NCBI RefSeq assembly: GCF_003970795.1
Contig: NZ_RWKW01000035.1
Span: 1 to 64,000, forward strand
DNA length: 64,000 bases
Origin: Aquibium carbonis
GTDB lineage: Bacteria > Pseudomonadota > Alphaproteobacteria > Rhizobiales > Rhizobiaceae
Reading direction: 5' to 3'
Shown: positions 6,148 to 59,718 of the stretch, one piece after another
Layout of the letters: the number at the start of each line of letters is the position of its first letter
How positions within the stretch are numbered: position 1 is the first letter of the stretch
Position numbers and translations under genes: made by a program
Notes under the pieces: generated by a model
Seen by the model: the letters and a program-made list of their open reading frames with translations, nothing else
Database searches by the model: none
What the model was told of the DNA's origin: nothing

Positions 6148-6582
6148 CTATTCAGATGGTGAGTCACCAGGGACATCTTCGGCGACCTCCTGACGTAGCC
6201 GTGGTCCCTTGGCGAGGCGGCGACCGAGCGCTGCGACAAACGCATCGTAGCGTTCGCCCGCTTGTGCGCGCGCGGCCGCCTGGGCCGGCTCCGGCAGCGG
6301 CGGGTTTGTCATCAACCAGTTCCGGACGAAGACCGCGAGCGTCTCTACCGCGATCCCCAGGTCCCGTTCCAGGCGCGTCATACGCCTGTCGAGCTGATCA
6401 AGACGCTTCGCAATAGCAGCTTCCTGCCGCTCGGCGGCGTCAGGTGACAGGAAAGACGCGATCGCGGCTTCGGCGATGAGCGAGCGCGACTGGCCACGAC
6501 GCGCTGCGTATTCCGCGAGCGATTTGGTGACGCCGGGTTCAAGATAGACCGAGAGCCGCTGCTTCTTGTTCGGATTTGGCAT
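6148..6582 (-). CDS. CopG/ribbon-helix-helix regulator of the transfer region
   Basis: The 144-residue product has an N-terminal ribbon-helix-helix (RLSVYLEPGVTKSLAEYA, then SRSLIAEAAIASFL). A coiled coil follows (about residues 50-85, RLDQLDRRMTRLERDLG) and the tail is basic. CopG-like proteins at this position, between traG and trbB, are standard in these elements and are thought to act as transfer-operon regulators or auxiliary proteins. It follows traG's stop by 6 bases in the opposite order of translation, so it is probably the last gene read with the traG transcript. Function is inferred. Confidence 0.85.
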   Translation of the reverse strand: MPNPNKKQRLSVYLEPGVTKSLAEYAARRGQSRSLIAEAAIASFLSPDAAERQEAAIAKRLDQLDRRMTRLERDLGIAVETLAVFVRNWLMTNPPLPEPAQAAARAQAGERYDAFVAALGRRLAKGPRLRQEVAEDVPGDSPSE

Positions 6583-8605: not shown

Positions 8606-10345
8606 TTACAGGCCGATGCCCCGCTTGCGGCCGAAGCTCCAATCGATCCCGCCATCGCCACGTACGACGCCCGAGACATGGCGACCGAGATTCCGCTCGA
8701 GCGACGGCGACCACGGGACGAGCTGAAAGCCGAGCCCGTCGTCGAGCATCGCGAAGCGGCCGGAGGCGAGATCGAAGCGGCGATAGTATGTGCCGGCGAC
8801 ATACTCGCCGGCCGACGGTTTGGCGGCGGCTTGTCCTGTCTCGGCGGTCAGACGTTCGCTCAGTGCATCGAGTTCGCGTCGGCGCAGTGTTTCGATGAGG
8901 TTGCGGCTGAAACTCACGCCGCGCGCCTGGCGCTCGGCCAGGCCCTGACTGATGAGATGCTCGGCGCGGCGATCGAGCGCGTCGCGCACCTCGGCTCCGA
9001 AGCCACCGCCACCAAGGGCTACCGGTTCGCGCGCAATCGCTTGGCGGTCCAGCCAGGTGGCGCCGTTGGCAGTAATCTGCTGCTCGAGCGGGATGTCCGA
9101 TCGAACTGCGAGCGCAACGCGTCGCCGGCCCTGCGCGTCATCAAACTTGCGCAGCTCGACGATCGAACCTGGGCCCGAGTCCCCAGCAGCATCGAGGTCG
9201 GCGAGCTTGATGTGATGGGTCCGGCCGTCGACTCCATCTATCACGGCATAGGCCGTGCCGTTCAGCTCGTCATCGAGACCACGCGCTATGAGGCGACCAA
9301 CGATCTGGTCGTCGAGGCTCTCTCCGGCGAGCACGAAACTCGAGGTGCCACGCTCGATATTGCGCTCGGCCAGCCCGCGATGGATGCGCTTGATGATGTC
9401 GCCTCGCTCGCCAAGCTCGCGCAGAGTGGTTTCGGCATTCTCGACCATCACCCACTGGCCCGGGCCGATCTGATCGGCAAGGCCCAGAGCCTCCAGCTTG
9501 CGCAGCCGTCCGACTTTCAGGACGTGAAGCTCGTCAGGCTGGCGATCAGGGCTCGGAGCGAGATCGATGACGCCTGTCCGATACGCGTCACGCGAGAGTT
9601 GCCGGTCGAGGTTGGTCCAGCGCTCCGACTCGACCTGACGTTCGAGGTTGCGCCGGATCTCCTGATCCGTGCGTGGGCCCAACTCCTGCGTCACGAGATC
9701 CTGTGCGCGAGCACGCATGCCTTCCTTGATGTAGTCGCGCGAGATGACGAGATCCTGGCCGTCGTCGGAGCGGCCGCGCAGGATGATGTGGACGTGGGGA
9801 TTGTCGGTGTTCCAATGATCAATGCCCACCCAGTCCAGCTTGGTGCCGAGGTCCTTCTCCATCTGGTTCATCAGGTCGCGGGCGAAGATCTTGAGGTCCG
9901 ACATCTCGGTCGCATCCTCGGGCGAGACGATGAAGCGGAAGTGGTGGCGATCGTCCTCGCAACGCTCGGCAAACTCCTTGGCATCCAAGTCGTCGCCGCC
10001 GGGTCCGAAGAGACGGGCTTTCTCCCCATCCCGGGTCACGCCTTCGCGGCGGAGATAGCTGAGGTGTGTTGCAAGCGGCGCCGAGCGCGCCGAATGGCGA
10101 ACGACGCGGGTCTTGATGACCGTGATGCGCGAGCGGCTGGTGAGCAGACGGTTCGCCTGCACGGTCGCGCGGCGGCCACGTCCGAAGCGCGATCCCGTGC
10201 CGGAGCTGATGTTGCCCGAGCGTGAGACGTGACCGCCGGCCCGCTGCGCGGCCGCAAGCGCCTGCGCGATGAACGGCCGAGCGCGCTGGGCGCGCGTCGA
10301 GCGGATGCGGCCGGGGCGGATGCGGAACTCGTCCTCGACGCTCAT
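8606..10345 (-). CDS. VirD2-family relaxase/mobilization nuclease with DUF3363 domain
   Basis: The start is set at the ATG 10343-10345 (MSVEDEFRIRPGRIR), giving 579 residues. The upstream extension to 10483 looks non-coding and would cover the candidate oriT. The N-terminal relaxase domain shows THLSYLRREGVTRDG with the probable catalytic Tyr, HHFRFIVSPED, and the metal-binding His motif DHWNTDNPHVHIILRG. The C-terminal half is the DUF3363 region. It should nick oriT and stay covalently bound to the 5' end during transfer. The relative in symbiosis ICEs is RlxS. Confidence 0.93.
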   Translation of the reverse strand: MSVEDEFRIRPGRIRSTRAQRARPFIAQALAAAQRAGGHVSRSGNISSGTGSRFGRGRRATVQANRLLTSRSRITVIKTRVVRHSARSAPLATHLSYLRREGVTRDGEKARLFGPGGDDLDAKEFAERCEDDRHHFRFIVSPEDATEMSDLKIFARDLMNQMEKDLGTKLDWVGIDHWNTDNPHVHIILRGRSDDGQDLVISRDYIKEGMRARAQDLVTQELGPRTDQEIRRNLERQVESERWTNLDRQLSRDAYRTGVIDLAPSPDRQPDELHVLKVGRLRKLEALGLADQIGPGQWVMVENAETTLRELGERGDIIKRIHRGLAERNIERGTSSFVLAGESLDDQIVGRLIARGLDDELNGTAYAVIDGVDGRTHHIKLADLDAAGDSGPGSIVELRKFDDAQGRRRVALAVRSDIPLEQQITANGATWLDRQAIAREPVALGGGGFGAEVRDALDRRAEHLISQGLAERQARGVSFSRNLIETLRRRELDALSERLTAETGQAAAKPSAGEYVAGTYYRRFDLASGRFAMLDDGLGFQLVPWSPSLERNLGRHVSGVVRGDGGIDWSFGRKRGIGL

Positions 10346-10355
10346 AGCCACAGCT

Positions 10356-10535
10356 GCGCACATCGCGCTAACACTCTGATTGAACAGAGAGAGCGCCGAG
10401 GTCGCAGGCCGCGTCGACAGGGCGCACCTCGCGAATTCGGCTCGCAAGCTATTGAAAAACCACGACCGTCCTCGCGCGCACATCGCGCCTTTTTATCTCG
10501 CCATCGTGCGGTCGTGCTTCCAAGCTCCTGCCTCA
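10356..10535. other. Candidate origin of transfer (oriT)
   Basis: The 245-base gap between the relaxase start and the transglycosylase holds an inverted repeat, CACGACCG (10462-10469) and CGGTCGTG (10509-10516). Eight bases further on is CTCCTGCC (10525-10532), resembling the RP4-type nic core TATCCTG-C. A 13-base direct repeat GCGCACATCGCGC occurs at 10356-10368 and 10477-10489. An inverted repeat just before a nic-like site next to the relaxase gene is the usual MobP arrangement. The nic assignment is by resemblance only. Confidence 0.4.
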
Positions 10536-11755: not shown

Positions 11756-12301
11756 TCACCGCGTCGGTGCGCGCCATTCGAACTGTCCGGTGCTTTCCTC
11801 ATCGGTCCACAGCGGCAGCGCGTGGCCGACGATTGCGCTGGTGGGAAGCGGGCCGAAGTAGCGCCCGTCGAGGCTGTCCTCGACCCACCAGTTCATGAGG
11901 AAGACCTCGCCGTCGGCGATGCGGCGGCAGCCTTGCCAGATCGGCAGTTGCCGGCCGAGCCGGTCGCGCACCAGCGCATCGCCCATCTCGATGCCGTCGA
12001 CTGTGACGTGCGTGCCATGGCGGCAGACTTCTTGCCCCGGACGCCCGGCAACACGTTTCAGGAGCGGCACGCCGCGCGGCAGGTAGTGGCGCTCAGCCAG
12101 GAAGGAGGAGAGCGGTTCAGGCGCGTTGACGACGACCAGGTCGGTGACCTCGAGCCGATCCGCCGGCGCGATCGTATAGAAGCCAATCGGCATGCTGGCG
12201 GAAGCGTTCCAGATGAGTCGTGGCGTGACGGGGACGAAGAAGCCGACGCCGATCGACATCGCGGCGAAGTACGTGGTCATGACGTAGCCGAAGCGCGTCA
12301 T
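11756..12301 (-). CDS. traF: TraF, S26-family conjugative pilin peptidase
   Basis: The 181-residue protein has an N-terminal transmembrane helix. The catalytic Ser sits in SASMPIGFY (Ser36) and the catalytic Lys in LLKRVAGRPG (Lys82), the TraF/signal peptidase Ser-Lys dyad. A later GRYFGPLP block matches the S26 C-terminal box. In RP4 TraF processes and cyclises the TrbC pilin; the partner here is 4666-4998. It overlaps the DUF2840 gene by 4 bases. Confidence 0.94.
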   Translation of the reverse strand: MTRFGYVMTTYFAAMSIGVGFFVPVTPRLIWNASASMPIGFYTIAPADRLEVTDLVVVNAPEPLSSFLAERHYLPRGVPLLKRVAGRPGQEVCRHGTHVTVDGIEMGDALVRDRLGRQLPIWQGCRRIADGEVFLMNWWVEDSLDGRYFGPLPTSAIVGHALPLWTDEESTGQFEWRAPTR

Positions 12302-12807
12302 GACTCGATCTCGCGGCGCAGTAGGATCGCGCGATGTTGCTCGACCGTGTAGGCGCGCGGTTCCTGGCCCGCAGTCAAGCGATTGTGGACATGCCGCCAG
12401 TGATGCGGCGAGACCTCGCTCGGATCGATTCCAGCCGCCTCAATAGCGTCGATGACCTGGAGGACGCGCTCGACCTTTGGCCAGTTCTCCATCTTGAGGA
12501 GGAGGTCGCCGCCCGGCCGTACGAAAGGCAGTGTGGAATAGCGCTCGCCCGGCGTGATCGTGCGCACGATGTCGATGCGCGAGATGACCGTGCCGTGGTC
12601 GTTCGAGGCCCAGCGAACGAAGGCGAAGACGCTGTTGGGCGTGAAGCTCAGGACGCGGCGGCGCCGGTCGAGGATCTGCTCCGCCTTCTCCTTGCCGAAG
12701 CGAATCCAGTATTCGACCTTCTTCTCGATCCATGTCAGCTCGACGCGCGTGAGGCCGTCGACAGGAAGCGGCGAAGGCACGAGACGAAGATGCGACGCGC
12801 CGGTCAT
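12298..12807 (-). CDS. DUF2840 domain protein
   Basis: The 169-residue protein contains LTRVELTWIEKKVEYWIRFG, RRRVLSFTPNSVFAFVRW and PGERYSTLPFVRPGGDLLLKM, which I recognise as the DUF2840 family always found between the ParA/RHH pair and traF. Function is unknown. It is co-translated by 4-base overlaps with the RHH gene upstream and traF downstream, so it belongs to the same par-traF transcription unit. Confidence 0.9.
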   Translation of the reverse strand: MTGASHLRLVPSPLPVDGLTRVELTWIEKKVEYWIRFGKEKAEQILDRRRRVLSFTPNSVFAFVRWASNDHGTVISRIDIVRTITPGERYSTLPFVRPGGDLLLKMENWPKVERVLQVIDAIEAAGIDPSEVSPHHWRHVHNRLTAGQEPRAYTVEQHRAILLRREIES

Positions 12808-13058
12808 GGCAGGTCTCCTTCGGCTGGAGGGAATTCGCGGGCGAGGAGGTCGCGCAGCATGTCCGCAACGGTCAGGCCACGCTGGAAGGCGACGATCTTG
12901 ATGCGGCCGCGCAGTTCCGTCGTGATGTCGATCGTCAGCCGCGCGGTGTAAGCGGCCGCGTCGCCGTTGCTGTTGGAGCGCGGCGCAGGCGCCTTGATCC
13001 AGCGTTCGGGATCAGCCGGTCGCGCGATGAAGGCGCGTTTGGAGGATCGCTGGGTCAC
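12804..13058 (-). CDS. Small ribbon-helix-helix protein paired with ParA
   Basis: The 84-residue protein starts at GTG 13056-13058, which overlaps the parA stop as GTGA. Its C-terminal half (ARLTIDITTELRGRIKIVAF, then TVADMLRDLLAREF) is an RHH fold, preceded by a basic disordered N-terminus. It occupies the ParB/ParG position after ParA and probably binds a centromere-like site and stimulates ParA. No standard ATG start exists in this frame, so the GTG is needed. It was hidden inside a longer frame running to 13718. Confidence 0.8.
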   Translation of the reverse strand: MTQRSSKRAFIARPADPERWIKAPAPRSNSNGDAAAYTARLTIDITTELRGRIKIVAFQRGLTVADMLRDLLAREFPPAEGDLP

Positions 13059-13690
13059 CGCGCCAGCCTCCCGACTTCGCTCGCAAGGGCAGTGATCTCG
13101 CGCGCCGCAATCGTTGCGTGGGCTTCCCAGACGAGGCGGCCGGACTGGGCGGCGTCGGCAAAGGCGACACGCTGGCCGACCTTGGAGGCGAGCAGCGGCG
13201 GGTCGTGATCGGCGAGCGTGAGCGCCGTCTCGCGCGCGATGATCGTGCGTGCGCCGCACCGATTGAGAACGAAGCGGGCGACGATCTGGGGCCGGTAGAC
13301 GCGCGCCTCGCTGAGCAGCGCGAGCATCTCGGCCGAGCCCCAGCCGTCGAACGGCGATGGCTGGACCGGGATCAGGATGATGTCGGCCGCCAGCAGCGCC
13401 GAGCGCATCAGCCCGGCGACGCGCGGCGGGCCATCGATGACGATGTGATGGACGTTGCGCGCGAGCTCGGGCGCTTCGCGATGAAGCGTGTCGCGAGCCA
13501 GGCCGATCACGCCGAACAGGCGCGGAAGGCTTTCGCGTGCGCGTTGCTGCGACCAGTCGAGGGCAGAGCCTTGCGGATCGGCGTCGATGACGGTGACGCG
13601 CTGGCCGCGGCGCGCCCACTCGCCGGCGAGGTGAAGAGCGAGCGTCGTCTTCCCGACACCGCCCTTCTGGTTGAGCAGCGCGACAATCAT
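13055..13690 (-). CDS. parA: ParA-family partition ATPase
   Basis: The 211-residue protein opens MIVALLNQKGGVGKTTLALH, a deviant Walker A at the very N-terminus. It continues with VTVIDADPQGSALDWS and HHIVIDGPPR, the standard MinD/ParA switch motifs. It is the short plasmid-type ParA without an N-terminal HTH. It should position the excised circular form of the element at cell division together with the RHH partner. A perfect palindrome (13751-13769) lies 61 bases upstream of the start. Confidence 0.95.
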   Translation of the reverse strand: MIVALLNQKGGVGKTTLALHLAGEWARRGQRVTVIDADPQGSALDWSQQRARESLPRLFGVIGLARDTLHREAPELARNVHHIVIDGPPRVAGLMRSALLAADIILIPVQPSPFDGWGSAEMLALLSEARVYRPQIVARFVLNRCGARTIIARETALTLADHDPPLLASKVGQRVAFADAAQSGRLVWEAHATIAAREITALASEVGRLAR

Positions 13691-13750
13691 GGGGCGCCCC
13701 GCTCTCGGCGGCGCGCATGCACAGGTGTGGATTTCGGAGCGGCCGTTAGA

Positions 13751-13769
13751 AAGATTCCGAAGGAATCTT
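13751..13769. promoter_or_regulatory. Perfect inverted repeat between repA and parA
   Basis: AAGATTCC-GAA-GGAATCTT is an 8-base-arm palindrome. Read on the minus strand it is followed by TTTCT, so it may terminate repA transcription. Its position directly upstream of parA also fits a parA operator or centromere site. The sequence alone does not decide. Confidence 0.5.
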
Positions 13770-13828
13770 GGTTAGAAGAGTTACGGCGCGCGCAATGCCT
13801 TGAATCGGCGTGCGGATCCGACGATTCC

Positions 13829-13893
13829 GGTCCCCGATAGCACGAGGATCGGGTCCCCGATGGCACGATAGGTCCGGTCCCTGATAGCACGAG
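13829..13893. repeat. Three iteron-like direct repeats next to repA
   Basis: The 18-base unit GGTCCCCGATAGCACGAG occurs at 13829-13846. It recurs at 13852-13869 as GGTCCCCGATGGCACGAT and at 13876-13893 as GGTCCCTGATAGCACGAG. Start-to-start spacing is 23 and 24 bases, so all copies lie on roughly the same helix face. They end 6 bases from the repA stop codon. This is the expected layout of RepA binding sites forming a vegetative origin for the excised element. Confidence 0.8.
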
Positions 13894-13898
13894 ACGAT

Positions 13899-14777
13899 TC
13901 ACAGCTTATCCCCAACGCGCGAGGTCCCGCGCTGCCTCAGCGAAGCGAGGGCAGTGGGATCGATTGGCGCGAATGAGAGGCGTTCGGGGGCGTCCCGCGG
14001 CTGCTCGATGGTCAGCCGGTAGCCAGGCAGCGTCTGCCGGCGAACGATGTCGCGCAGGTCGTAGGCGAAATGCTTTAGCGGTGAGAGGCTGCCGGACTTC
14101 GCATGAAGATAGGCGATGTCGAGGCTCCAGCCGTTCTGTTGGCGGCCGCCATGCTTGCGCACCAGGCGATAGAGCCAGCGCTCCAGTCCGCCGGTCAGGC
14201 GGAAGTAGGCGCGGTCGATGGTCAGCACGAGCGCATCGTCGAGGACGGCGGCGAAGAACCAGTCCGGCACGATCAGCTCGAGGCCGAGCGGACGGCCGTG
14301 CGCGTCCGCGCGCTCCTTCCACTCGTTGATCCAGGAGAAGCGATGCATCCGCCGCTCGCTTGGCTGGCGGATCGAGGTTGCGACGGTGGTCGATTGCAGG
14401 CGGTCGAGCCCCGCCTTAAGGCGGTCGTAGTCGCGCGCACTCACGCCGCGACCGATGAAGTTAAGAATCTCGTAAGGCGTCGCCGCCATCAGGCGCGAGG
14501 GCTGCAGGCCGAGGTCGCGCGCCTCGACTATCTGCGAGGCTGCCCAGATCAGTACGTCGGCGTCCCAGATGGTCGCGAGGCCGTGCTCCGGGACCGCTTC
14601 GACGCGGATGACGATGGTGCCGGCCTTGAAGTCGATGGGCGTTAGCCGCTTTGACTTGGCGAGCGAAAAGAAGGGATAGGCCATGAGGTCCTGCGCGTCG
14701 CGCGGCGCGAGATCGCCGGGAAGAGCCCGGAAAAGATCGAGTTGCTCGCGCTCTGTGCTACGGCGCGCCGAAGGCAT
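13899..14777 (-). CDS. repA: RepA, replication initiator protein A (RPA family)
   Basis: The 292-residue protein matches plasmid replication initiator RPA: REQLDLFRALPGDLAPRDAQ, MAYPFFSLAKSKR, NEWKERADAHGRPLGLELI, and a winged-helix-like middle (RWLYRLVRKHGGRQQNGW). It should bind the adjacent iterons and start replication of the circular intermediate, which helps ICEs survive after excision. It lies 9 bases downstream of the AlpA-like gene, suggesting that excision and replication genes are transcribed together. Confidence 0.93.
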   Translation of the reverse strand: MPSARRSTEREQLDLFRALPGDLAPRDAQDLMAYPFFSLAKSKRLTPIDFKAGTIVIRVEAVPEHGLATIWDADVLIWAASQIVEARDLGLQPSRLMAATPYEILNFIGRGVSARDYDRLKAGLDRLQSTTVATSIRQPSERRMHRFSWINEWKERADAHGRPLGLELIVPDWFFAAVLDDALVLTIDRAYFRLTGGLERWLYRLVRKHGGRQQNGWSLDIAYLHAKSGSLSPLKHFAYDLRDIVRRQTLPGYRLTIEQPRDAPERLSFAPIDPTALASLRQRGTSRVGDKL

Positions 14778-14786
14778 CTGCCGGTC

Positions 14787-15059
14787 TCAGCGATGCTGAC
14801 GTCCGGCATGCAGCATCGACGGATGGCGCTTTGCCGGAAGAACGGAGCCGCGAGGATCGGATGTGGAGGTGACCGCGCCTCGGTCGGCCCAGGCCCGCAA
14901 GTCCTCGAGAGCGTAGACGACCCGGCCGCCGAGCTTTCGATATGCGGGGCCCGTGCCGTACGTACGATGCTTTTCAAGCGTGCGGCTGGACAGACCGAGA
15001 AAGTTGGCCGCCTCCGGCGTTCGTAGAAAGCGCGGCGGCAAGCCAGCGAGAGTGGACAT
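14787..15059 (-). CDS. AlpA/HTH_17 DNA-binding protein, probable excisionase (RdfS-like)
   Basis: The 90-residue protein has a winged-helix HTH_17 core: RFLRTPEAANFLGLSSRTLEKHR, then GPAYRKLGGRVVYALEDLRAW. This is the AlpA/RdfS type of recombination directionality factor, which bends att sites and turns integrase toward excision. In the rhizobial symbiosis ICE of strain R7A, rdfS is activated by the frameshifted DUF2285 protein FseA, and an FseA-like gene lies directly upstream here. A 16-base perfect palindrome sits 29-44 bases before the start. Confidence 0.8.
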   Translation of the reverse strand: MSTLAGLPPRFLRTPEAANFLGLSSRTLEKHRTYGTGPAYRKLGGRVVYALEDLRAWADRGAVTSTSDPRGSVLPAKRHPSMLHAGRQHR

Positions 15060-15087
15060 TTCGCACCTCCGGGCATTCGTTGAGGCT

Positions 15088-15103
15088 GCCGGTGATCACC
15101 GGC
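15088..15103. promoter_or_regulatory. 16-base palindrome upstream of the excisionase gene
   Basis: GCCGGTGATCACCGGC is a perfect palindrome 29 bases upstream of the AlpA/RdfS-like start codon. Its core GGTGATCACC shares the GGTGATCA half-site with the 20-base palindrome at 16727-16746 in front of the XRE gene, so one regulator may read both. Which protein binds is not visible. Confidence 0.55.
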
Positions 15104-15144
15104 GTTCGAAGGCCACAGTGGCGGAGAGAAGCTGCGAGGGGGGA

Positions 15145-15173
15145 GTGGAAAGGTGGGAGTCTAAGATTTCCAC
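15145..15173. promoter_or_regulatory. Inverted repeat between DUF2285 gene and excisionase gene
   Basis: GTGGAAA (15145-15151) and TTTCCAC (15167-15173) form 7-base arms around a 15-base spacer. It lies just past the stop of the DUF2285 gene and upstream of the AlpA-like gene. It could be an operator or a weak terminator; no T-run follows it on the minus strand. Confidence 0.35.
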
Positions 15174-15185
15174 ACCCGCAGGCGG

Positions 15186-15966
15186 CTAGAATCGCGGACG
15201 ATGCTGGAGAAGCTTTCGATATCCTCCCGCGATCATCATCAGACCGTGCTTGATGAGATCCATGGTGGCGTAACGCCGCGACGATGTCTTCCAAACCTCT
15301 TCGGCGACATGCTCGATCCCGAAGAGCACTTCCGCGATGGTGCGATAACTTTCACCGTAGAGATGGCCATCGACCGCTTGGATCATGTGTCGCGCACGGC
15401 GCGTCTGCTGCCGGGTTAGCCGAGGATCGCGTGGCACCGACCGACGGTGAACTGATCGCAGGAGGCGGTCGATTGCTTCGAGACGTCCGAAGCCGTGCTC
15501 GTCGAGCGGAACCAGTGCGGCGAGCGGTGCATCCGGGGGTGTGTTCGGCAGGCAGACGATATGGAGACGTTGGCCGTTTCGCAGGGTGTGGAGAAAATGC
15601 GTGCCACCTTCGTCGACCAACGCCTGTGCTCTTTCATCGGGATCGACGACCTCGAGCTCAATCTGGGGATTCAGAAGCACCGGTGCTGTCGTCACCACCA
15701 CCGTCCCCGTCTCTTCCTGGGGCTCCCAGAGCACTTCGGTGTCGATCGCCTTGAGGGCCGGCGCTATCGGGAAATCGGAGGCCCCAGCGCTGGCGAATGC
15801 GTATTGCCGGCGCTTGGGACTGCCTGTCCTGACGTTCTATTGCCGAGTAATCGCGCTCGTATTCGGAATTCCGACGCAGCCATTCCCAAGCGAGGTCGGG
15901 GGCGGCGAGCGTGTCGAGGTAGTCATAGTCAGCGGATGAGCGCCACTTGGACCTTTTCTGTGCCAT
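15186..15966 (-). CDS. DUF6499-DUF2285 activator split by a +1 frameshift (FseA-like)
   Basis: The ATG at 15964-15966 has a strong GGGAGGAG site. Frame one encodes the DUF6499 part (SADYDYLDTLAAPDLAWEWL, then RWGLRFP) and then runs into unrelated sequence, stopping at 15658. The DUF2285 part (IAPALKAIDTEVLWEPQ to YRKLLQHRPRF) lies in the +1 frame and ends at 15186. Joining them at codon 66, CCC at 15769-15771, by skipping one base gives a 259-residue protein of normal family length. In ICEMlSym(R7A) the equivalent pair msi172-msi171 is joined by programmed frameshifting into FseA, which activates excision. A decayed gene or a sequencing error is the alternative. Confidence 0.75.
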
Positions 15967-16087
15967 CTGTCTCCTCCCACGCGTGATTGAAAGTGCGTGC
16001 AGGGAGTCCGACGATCATGGGTTGCGGCGCGTGGGGATAGTCCAAGAGTCTGCGCGATGCGATGCAGATCGCGCGCATCGGCGACGT

Positions 16088-16354
16088 TCAGCCGCCTGAC
16101 TTCTCGCGCGCCAGGAAGCGGTATCCGCATTCCGTCATCCAGCGTGCGCGGGCCAGGTGAGAATCGTGAACCCGGCGAGCGTGTTCAGCGTCGCCGTCCG
16201 GATCGAGGCCGAAGAGGACTGTGGCTGCCTCACGCCAGTCTGCCCCATCAGCGGCCGCATCGAGCAGGCGCAGGTAGAGCTTGGTGTTCTTGCGGTCGTA
16301 GTCGGTCACCGCGTCGCTGGCCGGTGGTTCATCTAGGTAATATTGGTTCGTCAC
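16088..16354 (-). CDS. Stand-alone DUF2285 protein (QseM-like antiactivator candidate)
   Basis: The 88-residue protein starts at GTG 16352-16354. Its core LYLRLLDAAADGADWREAAT, VLFGLDP and ARWMTECGYRFLA matches the C-terminal DUF2285 helix bundle, without the DUF6499 part. In ICEMlSym(R7A), QseM is such a small DUF2285-type protein that binds FseA and TraR and keeps excision off. The position directly upstream of the FseA-like gene and downstream of an XRE regulator supports the same role. No experimental support is visible here. Confidence 0.7.
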   Translation of the reverse strand: MTNQYYLDEPPASDAVTDYDRKNTKLYLRLLDAAADGADWREAATVLFGLDPDGDAEHARRVHDSHLARARWMTECGYRFLAREKSGG

Positions 16355-16489
16355 AACCGCCTCATCGACAAACGAATTGCGTCCAGATACAGAATGTTAA
16401 CCAATTCCGCGAGCGACGGGCGATGCACCGACCGCATCGCGTGATGCTCCGGACGCAGATTGGCGAGCGGTTGCTAACGGCGCTGCTAT

Positions 16490-16735
16490 TCACGTTTGGG
16501 TGTTCTTATTCCTCATTACCATGACACCTTCACCTTGGTCCGAGCTGAGGAGGACCACGCCGCTCGCTTCGAGTGCGCGACGGACCTGGTCGCGTGTCGA
16601 TTCGTAGACTGCGAGGTCGCTCTCCGACTCAAGGCGCTTGAGCGCTGTAAGTGATACTCGGGCCTTGTCAGCGAGCGTCTCCTGCGTCCAACCCAGCAAC
16701 GCGCGCGCGGCCCGCGATTGTCGGGCGGTGATCAT
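16490..16735 (-). CDS. XRE-family repressor (QseC-like candidate)
   Basis: The 81-residue protein has an N-terminal HTH (SRAARALLGWTQETLADKAR, VSLTALKRLE) followed by a short regulatory tail, RALEASGVVLLSSDQGEGV. Small XRE proteins of this kind (QseC in ICEMlSym) control the antiactivator gene and themselves. The ribosome site GGGAGGTGA and the ATG lie inside a perfect 20-base palindrome, strongly suggesting autorepression. It precedes the QseM-like gene by 135 bases on the same strand. Confidence 0.8.
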   Translation of the reverse strand: MITARQSRAARALLGWTQETLADKARVSLTALKRLESESDLAVYESTRDQVRRALEASGVVLLSSDQGEGVMVMRNKNTQT

Positions 16736-16746
16736 GCATGATCACC
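16727..16746. promoter_or_regulatory. Perfect 20-base palindrome over the XRE start codon
   Basis: GGTGATCATGCATGATCACC is fully self-complementary and covers the Shine-Dalgarno sequence and ATG of the XRE gene. Binding there would block both transcription and ribosome access. The outer half-site GGTGATCA recurs upstream of the excisionase gene at 15088-15103. Confidence 0.75.
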
Positions 16747-16883
16747 TCCCATCGCCGGGCACACGCACGCCAGAACTACGACCATTTTAGTCGCTCTCGG
16801 CGACTGGCGCCAGGTAAAATCGCTGTGTTTACCGTCAGCAACGGGGTGGCGGTGGGACTGATTCGGTCGCTCTAGCGAGCGAA

Positions 16884-16912
16884 AGCCCCGCCCGGATGGC
16901 CCGGGCGGGGCT
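16884..16912 (-). terminator. Strong hairpin after the DUF736 gene
   Basis: The arms AGCCCCGCCCGG (16884-16895) and CCGGGCGGGGCT (16901-16912) are perfect over 12 bases with a 5-base loop. On the minus strand it lies 14 bases past the DUF736 stop and is followed by TTTCG, consistent with an intrinsic terminator despite the short T-run. Confidence 0.65.
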
Positions 16913-16925
16913 TGGGGCTCGTGCC

Positions 16926-17249
16926 TCACTCGCCGTTGCGACGGTTGGGGCGGGACCAGATCAGGCTGTAGCCTTCGCCGTCCTCGTCGTCGAAGAGGTT
17001 GGCATAGATGGGAGCCGTGAACGACGGGTCGTCGAGCTTGAGACCCAGATAGTCGCGGCCTTCGTTGGAGCGCTTGGCCCAGGCGGCGCCGATCTCGACG
17101 CGGCCCGCGAAGACGCGGTGGCTGGGGGCGTTCTCGCCCGAGCGGATGGTCTCGGGAACGATGCGGACGTTCTTGGCCTGGACGCTGAGGGTGACGATCT
17201 GGCCGACGAATTCGTTGCCGGACTTCTTGAAGGTGCCGATGGTCGCCAT
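16926..17249 (-). CDS. DUF736 family protein (second copy)
   Basis: The 107-residue protein starts MATIGTFKKSGNEFVGQIVT and ends TAPIYANLFDDEDGEGYSLI, clearly DUF736. The start at 17247-17249 has AAGGAGAAC seven bases upstream, so the longer frame to 17435 is rejected. It differs enough from the copy at 11374-11709 to be an old paralogue. Function is unknown. It appears to be a single-gene unit closed by the hairpin at 16884-16912. Confidence 0.93.
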   Translation of the reverse strand: MATIGTFKKSGNEFVGQIVTLSVQAKNVRIVPETIRSGENAPSHRVFAGRVEIGAAWAKRSNEGRDYLGLKLDDPSFTAPIYANLFDDEDGEGYSLIWSRPNRRNGE

Positions 17250-17830
17250 GGTAGTTCTCCTTGATCTCTGTTTCGAGCCCGCACCATTGCGGCCTCGATG
17301 GCGATCGGTTGGCCGGAGGCGATCGTCGCCGCACCTGCTTGCAGGCCGGAGCACAGCGGAGGATGGCAGCCGTGAGACTTTCTTGTTTCGCGAGGAATGG
17401 GCGCAGCCCAGGGGAAGAAAGTCGATCGGCGCCATTGCGGCTTAGGCGATCGAGGCGAAGCCGGCCTTCGGCCAGATCAGCCCATCAAAGAGGCCGCTTG
17501 GAGCGCTCGATCAGACAGAGAAGGATCAAGGAGAACTTGGCGACACCCGTCGTGCAGCCGCTGAGACACGGCGGACGGCGGCCAGTGCTTCACCATGTCG
17601 AGGCAAACGAACCTCCCGCCTCAATGCTCCCGACGAACAAGAAGTGGCGAGCGATCTGGCCACTGCCTTCGCAGGCGTCGTCGTTCGCTACGCGGCCTGG
17701 CCCGCATTTCAACGTGACGCGCCACCAGGGGCTCGCTCTGATCCGGGAGTTCCGCAGCGAACTGCCAACTGACGTGGTGGAGTCGAAGGCTACAGCCTGA
17801 TCTGGTGATGCCGCGCCGGCTCGAATGGCG
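17250..17830. other. Gap without a recognisable gene
   Basis: About 580 bases between DUF736 and the membrane protein gene. Short open frames exist on both strands, but none has a convincing start, composition or family resemblance. The region presumably contains the DUF736 promoter. I see no clear repeat or terminator in it. Confidence 0.5.
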
Positions 17831-39724: not shown

Positions 39725-41092
39725 ATGACCGCGCTGATCTCACCAGATTCGTTCCACCGGCTCGTCAAACACGCGATCGATAGCGGCACGGCCGCGAGCG
39801 TTGCGGAGGCCGAGGCCTTGTTCCGCGGCTACCGGCTCGCCGTCGAGATCGATGCATCCGCCGCTCAGGACCCGATCCACCAGGCCGCGCTCCTGACGAC
39901 CGTCGCCCTGGGCCACCGCGTCTTTCTGGGCGGCGTGACGGTTACTGGCGCGCTCGATGCGCCGCTGGCCCTGTCGATGCCGCTCGGGCGAACGCTCGCC
40001 GAGGCGGTTGTCGCGCTCGGCGGCGCCTTGGAGCGCCGCGATGACGAGAGCCCGACCATCATCATCGGGGGCGGGCCCGGCGCGCGGCGTGACGGTTTCT
40101 GCGTGCGCGCCGCGGCAAGCGGCTGGCGAGGTGGAATTCTGCCGATCCACTCCGATCTTCAGCCCGACGCCGGCGCAGCCATGCCGCTGAGCGGCATGCT
40201 GTCGGCCGCCTTGGCCGTCAACGAAGCCTATCTCCATGTGAGCGGCGGCATGCCGGCGGCGGGCCGCCGCGTGGTCGGGTTCTCGCTCTGGCGCCCCAGT
40301 CCCGACGCGGACTGGCTCGAGGCGGATGCGAGCGAGCCAGCTCTGACTTACTTGCCCTCCCGGCTGTGGCTGATCGGGTTGGGGCATCTTGGCCAAGCCT
40401 ATCTCTGGGGACTCGGGCTTCTCCCATACCGGGACCCTGCCGAGCTTTTGCTGGTGCTGCAGGACGTCGACCTCATCACCGCCTCGACCGAGAGCACCTC
40501 GATCCTCAGCGAAAGCGACATGATCGGGCAGCGGAAGACGCGTGCGATGGCGGCGTGGGCGGAGCGCCGCGGCTTCACGACGTCCATTCAGGAGCGGCTG
40601 TTTGCGGCCGACTTCAAGCGCCAGGCCGACGAGCCGGCGATCGCCCTGTGCGGCGTCGACAACGCGGCGGGCCGCCGCGCCCTCGACCAGGTGGGATTCG
40701 ATCTCGTCGTCGAGGCGGGCTTGGGCCGCGGCCATCGCGACTTCCGCACCATGCGCCTTCACCTGCTGCCCGGGCGGCGGCCGGCGGCGGAGATCTGGAA
40801 GGCAGCCGCAGGCGGCGAAAAGGTCGAGGCGCGGCCGGCCTATGCCAAGCTGGTTGCCGAAGGAGTCCTCGACCGGTGCGGGATGACGCTGCTGGCGGGC
40901 AAGGCGGTGGGGGCGCCGTTCGTCGGATCGGTAGCGGCCTGCCTGGCGCTATCGGAGGTGCTTCGCCTGCTGCATGGCGGCCAGCTCCATGGGCTGATCG
41001 ATCTCGACCTTCTGAGCCCAGAGCAGCGCACGGTGTCGCGCCATCCCGGCGACTTCAGTCGCTTCAATCCCGGGTTCTCAATGGCCGGGTGA
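39725..41092 (+). CDS. E1/ThiF-like ubiquitin-activating enzyme (BilC-like)
   Basis: The 455-residue protein starts after AGGAGGCGGCCCTC. Residues 1-190 are an unrecognised alpha-beta N-terminal domain. From about 213 there is a ThiF/E1 adenylation domain with the nucleotide loop LIGLGHLGQAYLWG (218-224), ALCGVDNAAGRRALDQ and, near the end, a candidate catalytic Cys385 in LDRCGMTLLAGKAVG. It should adenylate the processed modifier and load it on the E2. It completes the operon. Confidence 0.88.
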   Translation: MTALISPDSFHRLVKHAIDSGTAASVAEAEALFRGYRLAVEIDASAAQDPIHQAALLTTVALGHRVFLGGVTVTGALDAPLALSMPLGRTLAEAVVALGGALERRDDESPTIIIGGGPGARRDGFCVRAAASGWRGGILPIHSDLQPDAGAAMPLSGMLSAALAVNEAYLHVSGGMPAAGRRVVGFSLWRPSPDADWLEADASEPALTYLPSRLWLIGLGHLGQAYLWGLGLLPYRDPAELLLVLQDVDLITASTESTSILSESDMIGQRKTRAMAAWAERRGFTTSIQERLFAADFKRQADEPAIALCGVDNAAGRRALDQVGFDLVVEAGLGRGHRDFRTMRLHLLPGRRPAAEIWKAAAGGEKVEARPAYAKLVAEGVLDRCGMTLLAGKAVGAPFVGSVAACLALSEVLRLLHGGQLHGLIDLDLLSPEQRTVSRHPGDFSRFNPGFSMAG

Positions 41093-58048: not shown

Positions 58049-58468
58049 TCAGTTCCCGCCCTCGGCGACGCCGGCGTGGCGGAGCAGGTCGCCGATGCTG
58101 TCGGTTCCGATCTGACAGCGGGCGATCACACGGTCGTAGGAAATGACGCGACCGCCGCGTCCTCGTTCCGTTGTGCATATGACTGCGCTCAGGAGGGCGA
58201 TGCGCTCGAGGGCGGCCTTGGCTGCGGCACTACCCGGCTGGTGCAGTTCAGGCGCGTCAAAATCCGCGAGCCGAACTTCGATCCACTCCTTGGGATCGGC
58301 CGTCTTACCAACGCAAAGACCGTCCCCGTCACCGACGTATCGGACGACTCCAGAAAAGCTGATGCCGGCCTGGCTCGGTAGTGGCGCCTCGCACGGGTCG
58401 GCATGCACAGGAGCGGTGGGCCAGAGCAGGCCGAGCGCACCGGCGACGATGAGGACGCGATAGTTCAC
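58049..58468 (-). CDS. Secreted staphylococcal-nuclease-like protein coupled to integrase
   Basis: The start is GTG 58466-58468, overlapping the integrase stop as GTGA; the frame further up lies inside the integrase gene. The 139-residue product has a signal peptide ending near APVHADP. The SNase core follows (SFSGVVRYVGDGDGLCVG, EWIEVRLADFDAPELHQPG, SAAAKAALERIALLS, SYDRVIARCQIG). Arg and Glu positions fit a calcium-dependent thermonuclease, though key residues should be aligned. Why a periplasmic nuclease is translated with the integrase is unclear. Confidence 0.85.
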   Translation of the reverse strand: MNYRVLIVAGALGLLWPTAPVHADPCEAPLPSQAGISFSGVVRYVGDGDGLCVGKTADPKEWIEVRLADFDAPELHQPGSAAAKAALERIALLSAVICTTERGRGGRVISYDRVIARCQIGTDSIGDLLRHAGVAEGGN

Positions 58469-59718
58469 GCGGCTTGCTTCAACGGATTGTTGGCTTTCTT
58501 CCTCTTGAGCAGCGCCCGAACGAACCTGTCCCACTTGGCCATGCCGGCGCGCTTTTCGACCATATAGTGCCAGCGATCGTAGTGCTTGGAGCTGACGTCC
58601 TGGAGGGCGTGATTTTGGAGGCGATCGCGGATTTCCTTCGATACACCTGCCTTGCCGGCAAGCGTTTTGAAAGTCCGGCGGAGATCGCGGTTCGTCGCAT
58701 AGGGGATCACGCCGCGGTCCCGTTGTCGCCAGACGAAGCTATATAGCGTGCCATGGCTGACGGGTTTCTTCGGGTCTTTGGCAGAGGGGAAGAACCAGCC
58801 ATATTCGTTCGGCTTGATCGACTCGATCAGTTCGGCAGCGAGCAAGGGAACCGGAACGGCGTGGGGCTGCTCGTTCTTGGTCTTGGACCAGTCGATGATC
58901 CGCTCCTTGGCGTCCCATTGATCGACATGCAGCCGTGCAATCTCCTCGACGCGCTGGCCGGTCAGCATGATGAGTTGCACGGCGCGAGGATAGGAGGGGT
59001 GGACCGGCGTGTCGGGGCATTCCAGCCAGCGATAGAGTTGCACGAACTCGTCTTCGTCGAGCCAGCGAGTACCCTGGACCTTCGGCTCGGTCGGGATGCC
59101 CGTTGCGGGATTGAAGGGGAGCCGGAAGCGGCGAGAGGATTGCTGGCGATAGTCGTTGTCGGACTTCATGCCCCAGCTAAAGGCAGCATGGAGGTAGGAG
59201 CGAACATGATCGGCCATGGACTTTGCGCCTCGCTCGTAGATGGGGCGGATCAGCTCGATGATTTCCTCGGCCTCGATCTCACGTGCGAGGCGGTTGCGCC
59301 CCAGCGTATCGGCGATCTTGTTGAGGCCCTTTTCGGTTTCCTTCCATGATGGCTTGCCGGCTTCCTTGAGCGCCGCGACATAACCCTCGAACAAGTCGGC
59401 TACCGTGCCGGGACGTGTGTCGGTGGCTATCTTGATGCTTCGGCCCTTTTGGATGACGTCGGCAAAGTCGCGCTTGTAGATTTCGCGGGCCTGGGCCAGC
59501 GACATCGACGGATAGGCACCGATCTTCTTCTTAGTGCGTTTGCCGTCGCGCCATTGCTGCGCCATCCAATCGGCGGTGACACGCTTCGGCATGGGCTTGA
59601 GAACGAGGACGAGACGGCCGGTGCCACGTCCTTCGCCATCGGCGAGGTTTTCTTGTTTGCGGCTGATTTCGACGCGCTTCAGTGCGTGCCGGATCGCGGT
59701 GTCGGTTAGGACGGTCAT
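58465..59718 (-). CDS. int: Tyrosine recombinase, P4-type integrase (DUF4102)
   Basis: The 417-residue protein has an N-terminal arm-binding DUF4102 domain (KKKIGAYPSMSLAQAREIYK), a core-binding domain and a catalytic domain. Catalytic residues seen are Arg in MLTGQRVEEIARL, RDLRRTFKTLAG (the usual HxxR box reads RDLR, a variant also known in this group), His in RLQNHALQDVS and Tyr in SKHYDRWHY. It should catalyse recombination between the element's end and radC. Transcription runs away from radC into the SNase-like gene. Confidence 0.95.
   Translation of the reverse strand: MTVLTDTAIRHALKRVEISRKQENLADGEGRGTGRLVLVLKPMPKRVTADWMAQQWRDGKRTKKKIGAYPSMSLAQAREIYKRDFADVIQKGRSIKIATDTRPGTVADLFEGYVAALKEAGKPSWKETEKGLNKIADTLGRNRLAREIEAEEIIELIRPIYERGAKSMADHVRSYLHAAFSWGMKSDNDYRQQSSRRFRLPFNPATGIPTEPKVQGTRWLDEDEFVQLYRWLECPDTPVHPSYPRAVQLIMLTGQRVEEIARLHVDQWDAKERIIDWSKTKNEQPHAVPVPLLAAELIESIKPNEYGWFFPSAKDPKKPVSHGTLYSFVWRQRDRGVIPYATNRDLRRTFKTLAGKAGVSKEIRDRLQNHALQDVSSKHYDRWHYMVEKRAGMAKWDRFVRALLKRKKANNPLKQAA

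Follow-up and report, generated by a model that had tools for sequence, protein, structure and literature searches.

FseA of ICEMlSym(R7A), the closest described counterpart of the protein considered here, is the product of programmed +1 frameshifting (PMC10359603, in the parts of its text available to us). According to the same text, ~61% of 4709 curated homologues have a conserved +1 site, and UGGGGG is noted at the codons for the amino acids WGL. Accounts of the functional steps in R7A (the slip, FseA, rdfS, excision, and QseM) are found in the accessible portions of PMC10359603, PMC5882170, and PMC11963761. Recoding of FseA, which the initial annotation of the present locus had cited for ICEMlSym(R7A), is indeed in print for the family (PMC10359603, available text).

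We analysed a window of 64,000 nucleotides from Aquibium carbonis (positions 1 to 64,000 of contig NZ_RWKW01000035.1) and report the sequence, homology, site conservation, neighbours, and associated repeat of an fseA homologue within it. The system itself is already described in Mesorhizobium, and the gene in the window is a further member.

An fseA Homologue in Two Frames

Between 15966 and 15186 on the minus strand, a DUF6499 half and a DUF2285 half meet by the skipping of one base:

15769-15966, minus strand: 5' part of fseA, the DUF6499 half, frame 0, codons 1-66 (PF20109, E 3.1e-23; AWEWLRRN in the translation)
15186-15770, minus strand: 3' part of fseA, the middle region and DUF2285 half, +1 frame, TAG at 15188-15186 (PF10074, E 1.3e-32)
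15768-15786, minus strand: putative +1 frameshift site, TGG GGC CTC CGA TTT CCC G (TTT-Y at the junction in 134/135 split loci; GGG/CGA codon bias relative to fused homologues)
15971-15978, minus strand: ribosome-binding site of fseA, GGGAGGAG (from the sequence; four bases 5' of the ATG at 15966)

Frame 0 extends from 15966 to 15658 (102 aa), remaining open past codon 66 until the stop at 15660-15658, and covers DUF6499 completely (1-60 of the 60 profile positions); the +1 frame, which runs to 15186, covers DUF2285 completely (1-107 of 107). The AWEWLRRN of the first half is the AWEFLRRN-like motif of the FseA family, here joined to a DUF2285. At the junction, TGG GGC CTC CGA TTT CCC GAT, the protein reads WGLRF with TTT-C, and the G run, TGGGGC, is weaker than the UGGGGG printed for the family (PMC10359603, available text). 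The DUF2285 half has a net charge of +6, and the charge of this half is positive in 134 of the 135 split loci described below.

The initial annotation had seen two intact halves in different frames joined by a one-base skip, a strong ribosome site, and no other damage. All of this holds: both Pfam matches are full-length, GGGAGGAG at 15978-15971 is a real ribosome site, and there are zero stops within either half. Alternatively, the split frame could be an error of sequencing or assembly, or the gene could be decaying and have recently acquired a disabling mutation. Drafts often contain single-base errors, and this genome is a draft of 188 contigs. However, a Nitrobacter relative (L003; Nitrobacter sp. 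62-13 MAG, NZ_MKRN01000069.1), which differs from the window by six substitutions and zero indels over the 781-base gene, has the same number of Ts and Cs at the frameshift site. Because this relative was separately assembled, a sequencing error is unlikely, and on the strength of L003 we rejected it as the cause of the split. The same +1 layout is found in 135 of 175 distinct loci and both halves of the window gene are free of stops, leaving error or decay with a very small probability.

Conservation of the Junction among Homologues

Homologues were collected from public genomes, both halves being located by profiles built from the set itself, and near-identical copies were dropped. PF20109 had matches in 86/397 genomes sampled from the order and in 43/398 sampled from the phylum (these samples overlap). 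The C half lies in the +1 frame in 135 of the 175 distinct loci and is fused in a single frame in 34; one further locus (L052) has it in the third frame, and five have no C half in reach. A +1 split is therefore the usual layout in this sample. No homologue was found in viral contigs. A peptide-pattern search of a collection of genome contigs returned one locus, and a sequence search with the C half of the window gene against solved structures gave zero matches.

Counted without assuming the site, TTT-Y occurs within the span that could contain the junction in 133/135 split loci. One of the two misses (L038) has TTT CCC and a stop later in its C half; counting it brings the total with TTT at the junction to 134/135. 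The other (L024) has TGT. At other positions in these genes, 27% of the 925 Phe codons are TTT. The 130 proteins in the codon tests are related to one another (116 clusters at 90% identity, 84 at 70%, and 39 at 50%), and we therefore give no probability for the conservation of TTT. The next base is C in 123 of 130 loci and T in the other seven. The codon that follows is CCC in 66 cases, CGC in 41, CGT in seven, CCT in four, TCC in three, and TGT, TGC, and CAC in two each, with single occurrences of CGG, CAT, and CTT. The junction of L157, whose row was misplaced in this tally, is TTT CGC. In L152, also split, TTT is followed by the stop codon TGA.

The fused loci that also encode WGL (26 in number) serve as a natural control, since the amino acids are retained in them and the codons are not. 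WGL has GGG as its Gly codon in 97/130 split loci compared to 6/26 fused loci (Fisher p 1e-6), and CGA precedes TTT in 77/130 split loci and in none of the 26 fused loci (p 3e-9). TTT is present at the matching place in 3/26 of the fused loci as well. The commonest form before TTT in split loci is TGG-GGG-TTG-CGA. The context in the window, GGC-CTC-CGA, is weaker than the family's usual GGG TTG, and such a weakened ribosome-site-like run would suggest a lower rate of shifting here. The tail added by unshifted ribosomes varies from 2 to 236 codons (median 21), which argues that the shift, and not the tail, is what is kept.

As another possibility, each half could be translated from its own start and the two proteins work together as a complex, with no frameshifting at all. 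GTG at 15734 could serve as a start for the second frame, and for Azorhizobium homologues separate genes have been proposed and function without frameshifting has been argued (PMC9601964, in its available text), so the frameshift switch may not be universal. A two-protein arrangement leaves unexplained the near-invariant TTT-Y, the biased GGG and CGA codons upstream of it, and the existence of 34 single-protein homologues, and we consider it highly improbable for the window. FseA-like programmed +1 recoding, which the initial annotation had put forward as a candidate, is the best reading of a split +1 layout in 135/175 loci with TTT at the junction in 134/135.

A second fseA homologue exists in the same genome (G000:C123:37119-37812; L002, L116). 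It is ~31% identical in the C half, and is likewise split in +1 with a TTT TCC junction.

Position of the Slip

The initial annotation had placed the slip at CCC, codon 66 (15769-15771), and on this point the comparison of loci favours the preceding codon, UUU, codon 65 (15774-15772). The two cannot be told apart by their product: a UUU-C slip and a CCC-G slip yield an identical protein. In favour of CCC, where tRNA-Pro would move from CCC to CCG, that codon follows TTT in the window and in 66/130 split loci, against a 24.6% share among other Pro codons in these genes. The remaining 64/130 have some other codon after a nearly invariant TTT, however, and L152, with TTT TGA, has no CCC on which to slip; slipping at CCC is accordingly improbable. 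The pattern of a near-invariant TTT and a variable next codon whose first base is always C or T is what places the slip at UUU, as it fits re-pairing of tRNA(Phe) from UUU to UUC or UUU and is not a requirement of a slip at CCC. Most likely, then, judging from the aligned sites, the slip occurs at UUU onto UUC, with CCG (15770-15768) as the next codon read. No stimulatory RNA structure stood out 3' of the slip site (z 0.60; 143 of 200 shuffles fold equally well).

The comparison provides a rule open to testing, in which a pyrimidine comes after UUU and GGG-UUG-CGA usually before it. Such a rule helps in finding genes that annotation has broken in two.

Neighbouring Regulators and Quorum Sensing

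The genes on either side of fseA resemble those of the R7A circuit:

16088-16354, minus strand: qseM-like lone DUF2285 gene, 88 aa, net charge -4 (PF10074, E 2.3e-8; PDB 7UQT, QseM, E 3.5e-16)
14787-15059, minus strand: rdfS-like recombination directionality factor gene, HTH_17 (PF12728, E 1e-9; PDB 8DGL, E 7.7e-10)
16490-16735, minus strand: Xre-type HTH gene, for which position alone suggests a qseC-like role (PF01381, E 1.6e-5)

An RdfS-type gene directly after fseA, as the initial annotation had it, is borne out by the match to R7A RdfS (8DGL), which covers 61 residues of a small winged HTH protein. By analogy with R7A, whose QseM also binds TraR, the QseM homologue is predicted to bind the DUF6499 part of FseA.

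A lone DUF2285 gene lies upstream in 85 of the 133 split loci with enough flanking sequence, compared to one of 33 fused loci, and that single case (L182) is a tandem fused copy. On a tree of 162 rows (128 split and 34 fused), the split or fused state changes at least eight times and the neighbour state at least six times, giving two independent pairs on well-supported branches. With two such pairs an independent test of the association between the frameshift and the lone DUF2285 gene is not possible, and what we claim for it from these sequences is probable shared descent and no more.

In the element as sampled, no traR or traI was found linked to fseA; the window starts at a contig end. One LuxR-type autoinducer-binding domain is present in the genome, on another contig (C147). 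LuxI gave no match in the genome, a result of little weight, as control genomes likewise gave none. The locus thus presents the recoding switch, the antiactivator, and the target in the element of another genus, with no quorum-sensing genes in view, and so offers a setting in which to study the roles of the frameshift and QseM in the absence of TraR.

An FseA-Box-Like Repeat

The published FseA box, located upstream of rdfS, comprises two hexamers in inverted orientation with a spacer of 15 or 16 bases (PMC10359603, available text). A similar repeat is present in the window:

15145-15173, minus strand: FseA-box-like inverted repeat GTGGAAA-N15-TTTCCAC, between fseA and rdfS (sequence pattern, relatives)

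The pattern TGGAAA-N15/16-TTTCCA has its sole match in the 64 kb here and none in 100 shuffles, the pattern having been taken from this site. In L003 the arms are identical and 3 of the 15 spacer bases differ. Relatives have similar repeats at the same place between fseA and rdfS: an exact six-base repeat with a spacer of 15 or 16, no more than 80 bases from the stop, occurs in 30/129 split loci, compared to a mean of 4.1 and a maximum of nine in 50 base shuffles. In a search for FseA boxes across the loci, spacers of 5 and 7 were also enriched, more so than 15 and 16, which is due to the hairpin in the rdfS leader.

A Covarying Hairpin in the rdfS Leader

The leader of rdfS contains a further dyad:

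15088-15103, minus strand: dyad or hairpin GCCGGTGATCACCGGC, 28 bases 5' of the rdfS start codon (58/88 leaders have a hairpin at the corresponding position; covariation)

We compared the leaders of 88 split loci in which the rdfS start could be placed, defining a hairpin as at least six Watson-Crick pairs between -80 and -11. Hairpins were found in 60/88 leaders (base shuffles: mean 10.1, at most 17/88), and in 58 of these 60 the hairpin ends 25-30 bases before the ATG. Among 86 distinct aligned leaders, each of the seven base pairs in the inner helix varies at both partners. Two-sided changes number 64 cells, compared to 17.7 (sd 3.5) with shuffled partners, and sliding the partner abolishes the signal. 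An outer stem of at least five pairs is seen in 21/69 leaders (swapped partners: mean 8.0, at most 14), and one of at least four pairs in 39/69, a level that base shuffles reached at most once; at six or more pairs the count of 6/69 falls inside the control range. The outer stem thus appears less well supported than the inner helix. On average the leaders are more stably folded than their shuffled versions, with a mean z of -1.75 (n = 88), compared to -0.41 for a stretch inside rdfS.

The window's own leader folds unremarkably (z 0.11 and -0.68), and RNAalifold kept three pairs on a MAFFT alignment of the leaders. No Rfam family was matched over 13500-17500 to E 0.1, and a sigma-70 promoter scan found none. 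The hairpin is not mentioned in the available text of PMC10359603 or PMC11963761 (word search), or in what a literature search on it returned. The R7A rdfS transcript starts 25 bases before the start codon (PMC5882170, available text), although R7A RdfS begins approximately eight residues earlier. The leader hairpin may represent an RNA control of rdfS or, should the stem prove to lie outside the transcript, a DNA site. If it does act on rdfS, it would add a control step to a well-studied circuit.

Backbone and Cargo of the Element

The order behind rdfS is repA, parA, DUF2840, S26 peptidase, transglycosylase, and a DUF3363 gene:

13899-14777, minus strand: replication initiator protein A gene, repA (PF10134, E 3.2e-85)
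13055-13690, minus strand: ParA-like partition ATPase gene (PF13614, E 3.5e-21)
12298-12807, minus strand: DUF2840 gene (PF11000, E 3.4e-75)
11756-12301, minus strand: TraF-like S26 peptidase gene (PF10502, E 1.3e-27; TraF name by position and family)
8606-10483, minus strand: DUF3363 gene of the transfer region, relaxase-type by position and the annotation of similar plasmids (PF11843, E 4.6e-87)

Similar records have a VirD2-family relaxase annotated under the DUF3363 match. Sharing with the Nitrobacter contig is mosaic, with pieces between window positions 6339 and 31400 aligning at 87-99.5%. The alignment to L003 breaks at 14371-14311, inside repA, where the flanking piece is 89% versus 97% alike; repA of L003 matches in two frames and may be broken or mosaic, and a masked stretch of L003 lies nearby.

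The region 31411-53781 looks like defence-island cargo. It includes a caspase-domain gene, UvrD-type helicases with PD-(D/E)XK nuclease domains, a BilD-like gene (39725-41092, E 1.4e-175), an AbiEii gene, and type I restriction genes. A tyrosine-integrase gene is located at 58465-59718 (PF00589, E 1.1e-9). No tRNA genes were found within the 64-kb window.

A Model for the Locus

We are highly confident that this is an fseA homologue in which a minority +1 slip at CGA-UUU-CCC makes the activator of rdfS, with the QseM homologue restraining FseA. The slipping, its rate, the binding of DNA, the binding of QseM, and the effect on transfer are carried over from work on R7A. Ribosomes would start at 15966 and translate the DUF6499 half. 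At CGA-UUU-CCC a minority would slip by +1, most likely as peptidyl-tRNA(Phe) shifts its pairing from UUU to the UUC that overlaps it, and would read on through the DUF2285 half. The fused protein alone could be the activator, and unshifted ribosomes would append a short non-conserved tail. FseA would then bind the inverted repeat just downstream and turn on rdfS and the genes behind it, and RdfS would turn the integrase towards excision, leading to excision and transfer. The gene just upstream encodes the QseM homologue, which would restrain FseA by binding its DUF6499 half. If R7A is a guide, recoding probably limits transfer in A. carbonis, as the initial annotation had supposed. A more elaborate scheme, in which the frameshift and QseM gate excision with no linked quorum-sensing operon and the covarying stem-loop, which would end immediately 5' of the rdfS ribosome site, sets the amount of excisionase after the promoter has been opened by FseA, is offered tentatively, and we think it rather doubtful.

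To the described system the present analysis adds the slip codon, the flanking genes and repeat with which the circuit is complete, and, as a lead, the hairpin in the rdfS leader.

Comparison with Known Systems

FseA of ICEMlSym(R7A) in Mesorhizobium japonicum (msi172-msi171) shares with the window a DUF6499 and a DUF2285 in two frames, joined in +1. In ICEMlSym(R7A) rdfS is switched on from an inverted repeat, as would be the case in the window judging from its sequence, and homologues of QseM and RdfS are present in both. The layout differs: in the window, fseA directly follows the qseM-like gene on the same strand and is itself directly followed by rdfS. R7A has fseA under the control of a TraR/AHL promoter, as part of the operon traI2-msi172-msi171 (PMC5882170, available text), whereas traR and traI were not found in the window. 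RovC of Yersinia and other single-frame relatives share the DUF2285 with the window but have no frameshift (PMC10359603, available text).

Plasmid pUnnamed1 of Agrobacterium vitis CG957 (CP146241.1, L188) has the same order as the window, DUF2285 - DUF6499 - DUF2285 - HTH - repA - parA - DUF2840 - S26 peptidase, and likewise has TTT at the junction; its C half differs, being 49.7% identical.

In prfB, the gene for release factor 2, the tRNA in the P site slips by +1 with a ribosome-site-like run upstream, and the window gene would be alike in both respects. In prfB, however, a UGA stop follows the slip codon, whereas the window has a sense codon at that place and its G run lies one codon further upstream. 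The TTT TGA of L152 puts a stop directly after the slip codon, as in prfB.
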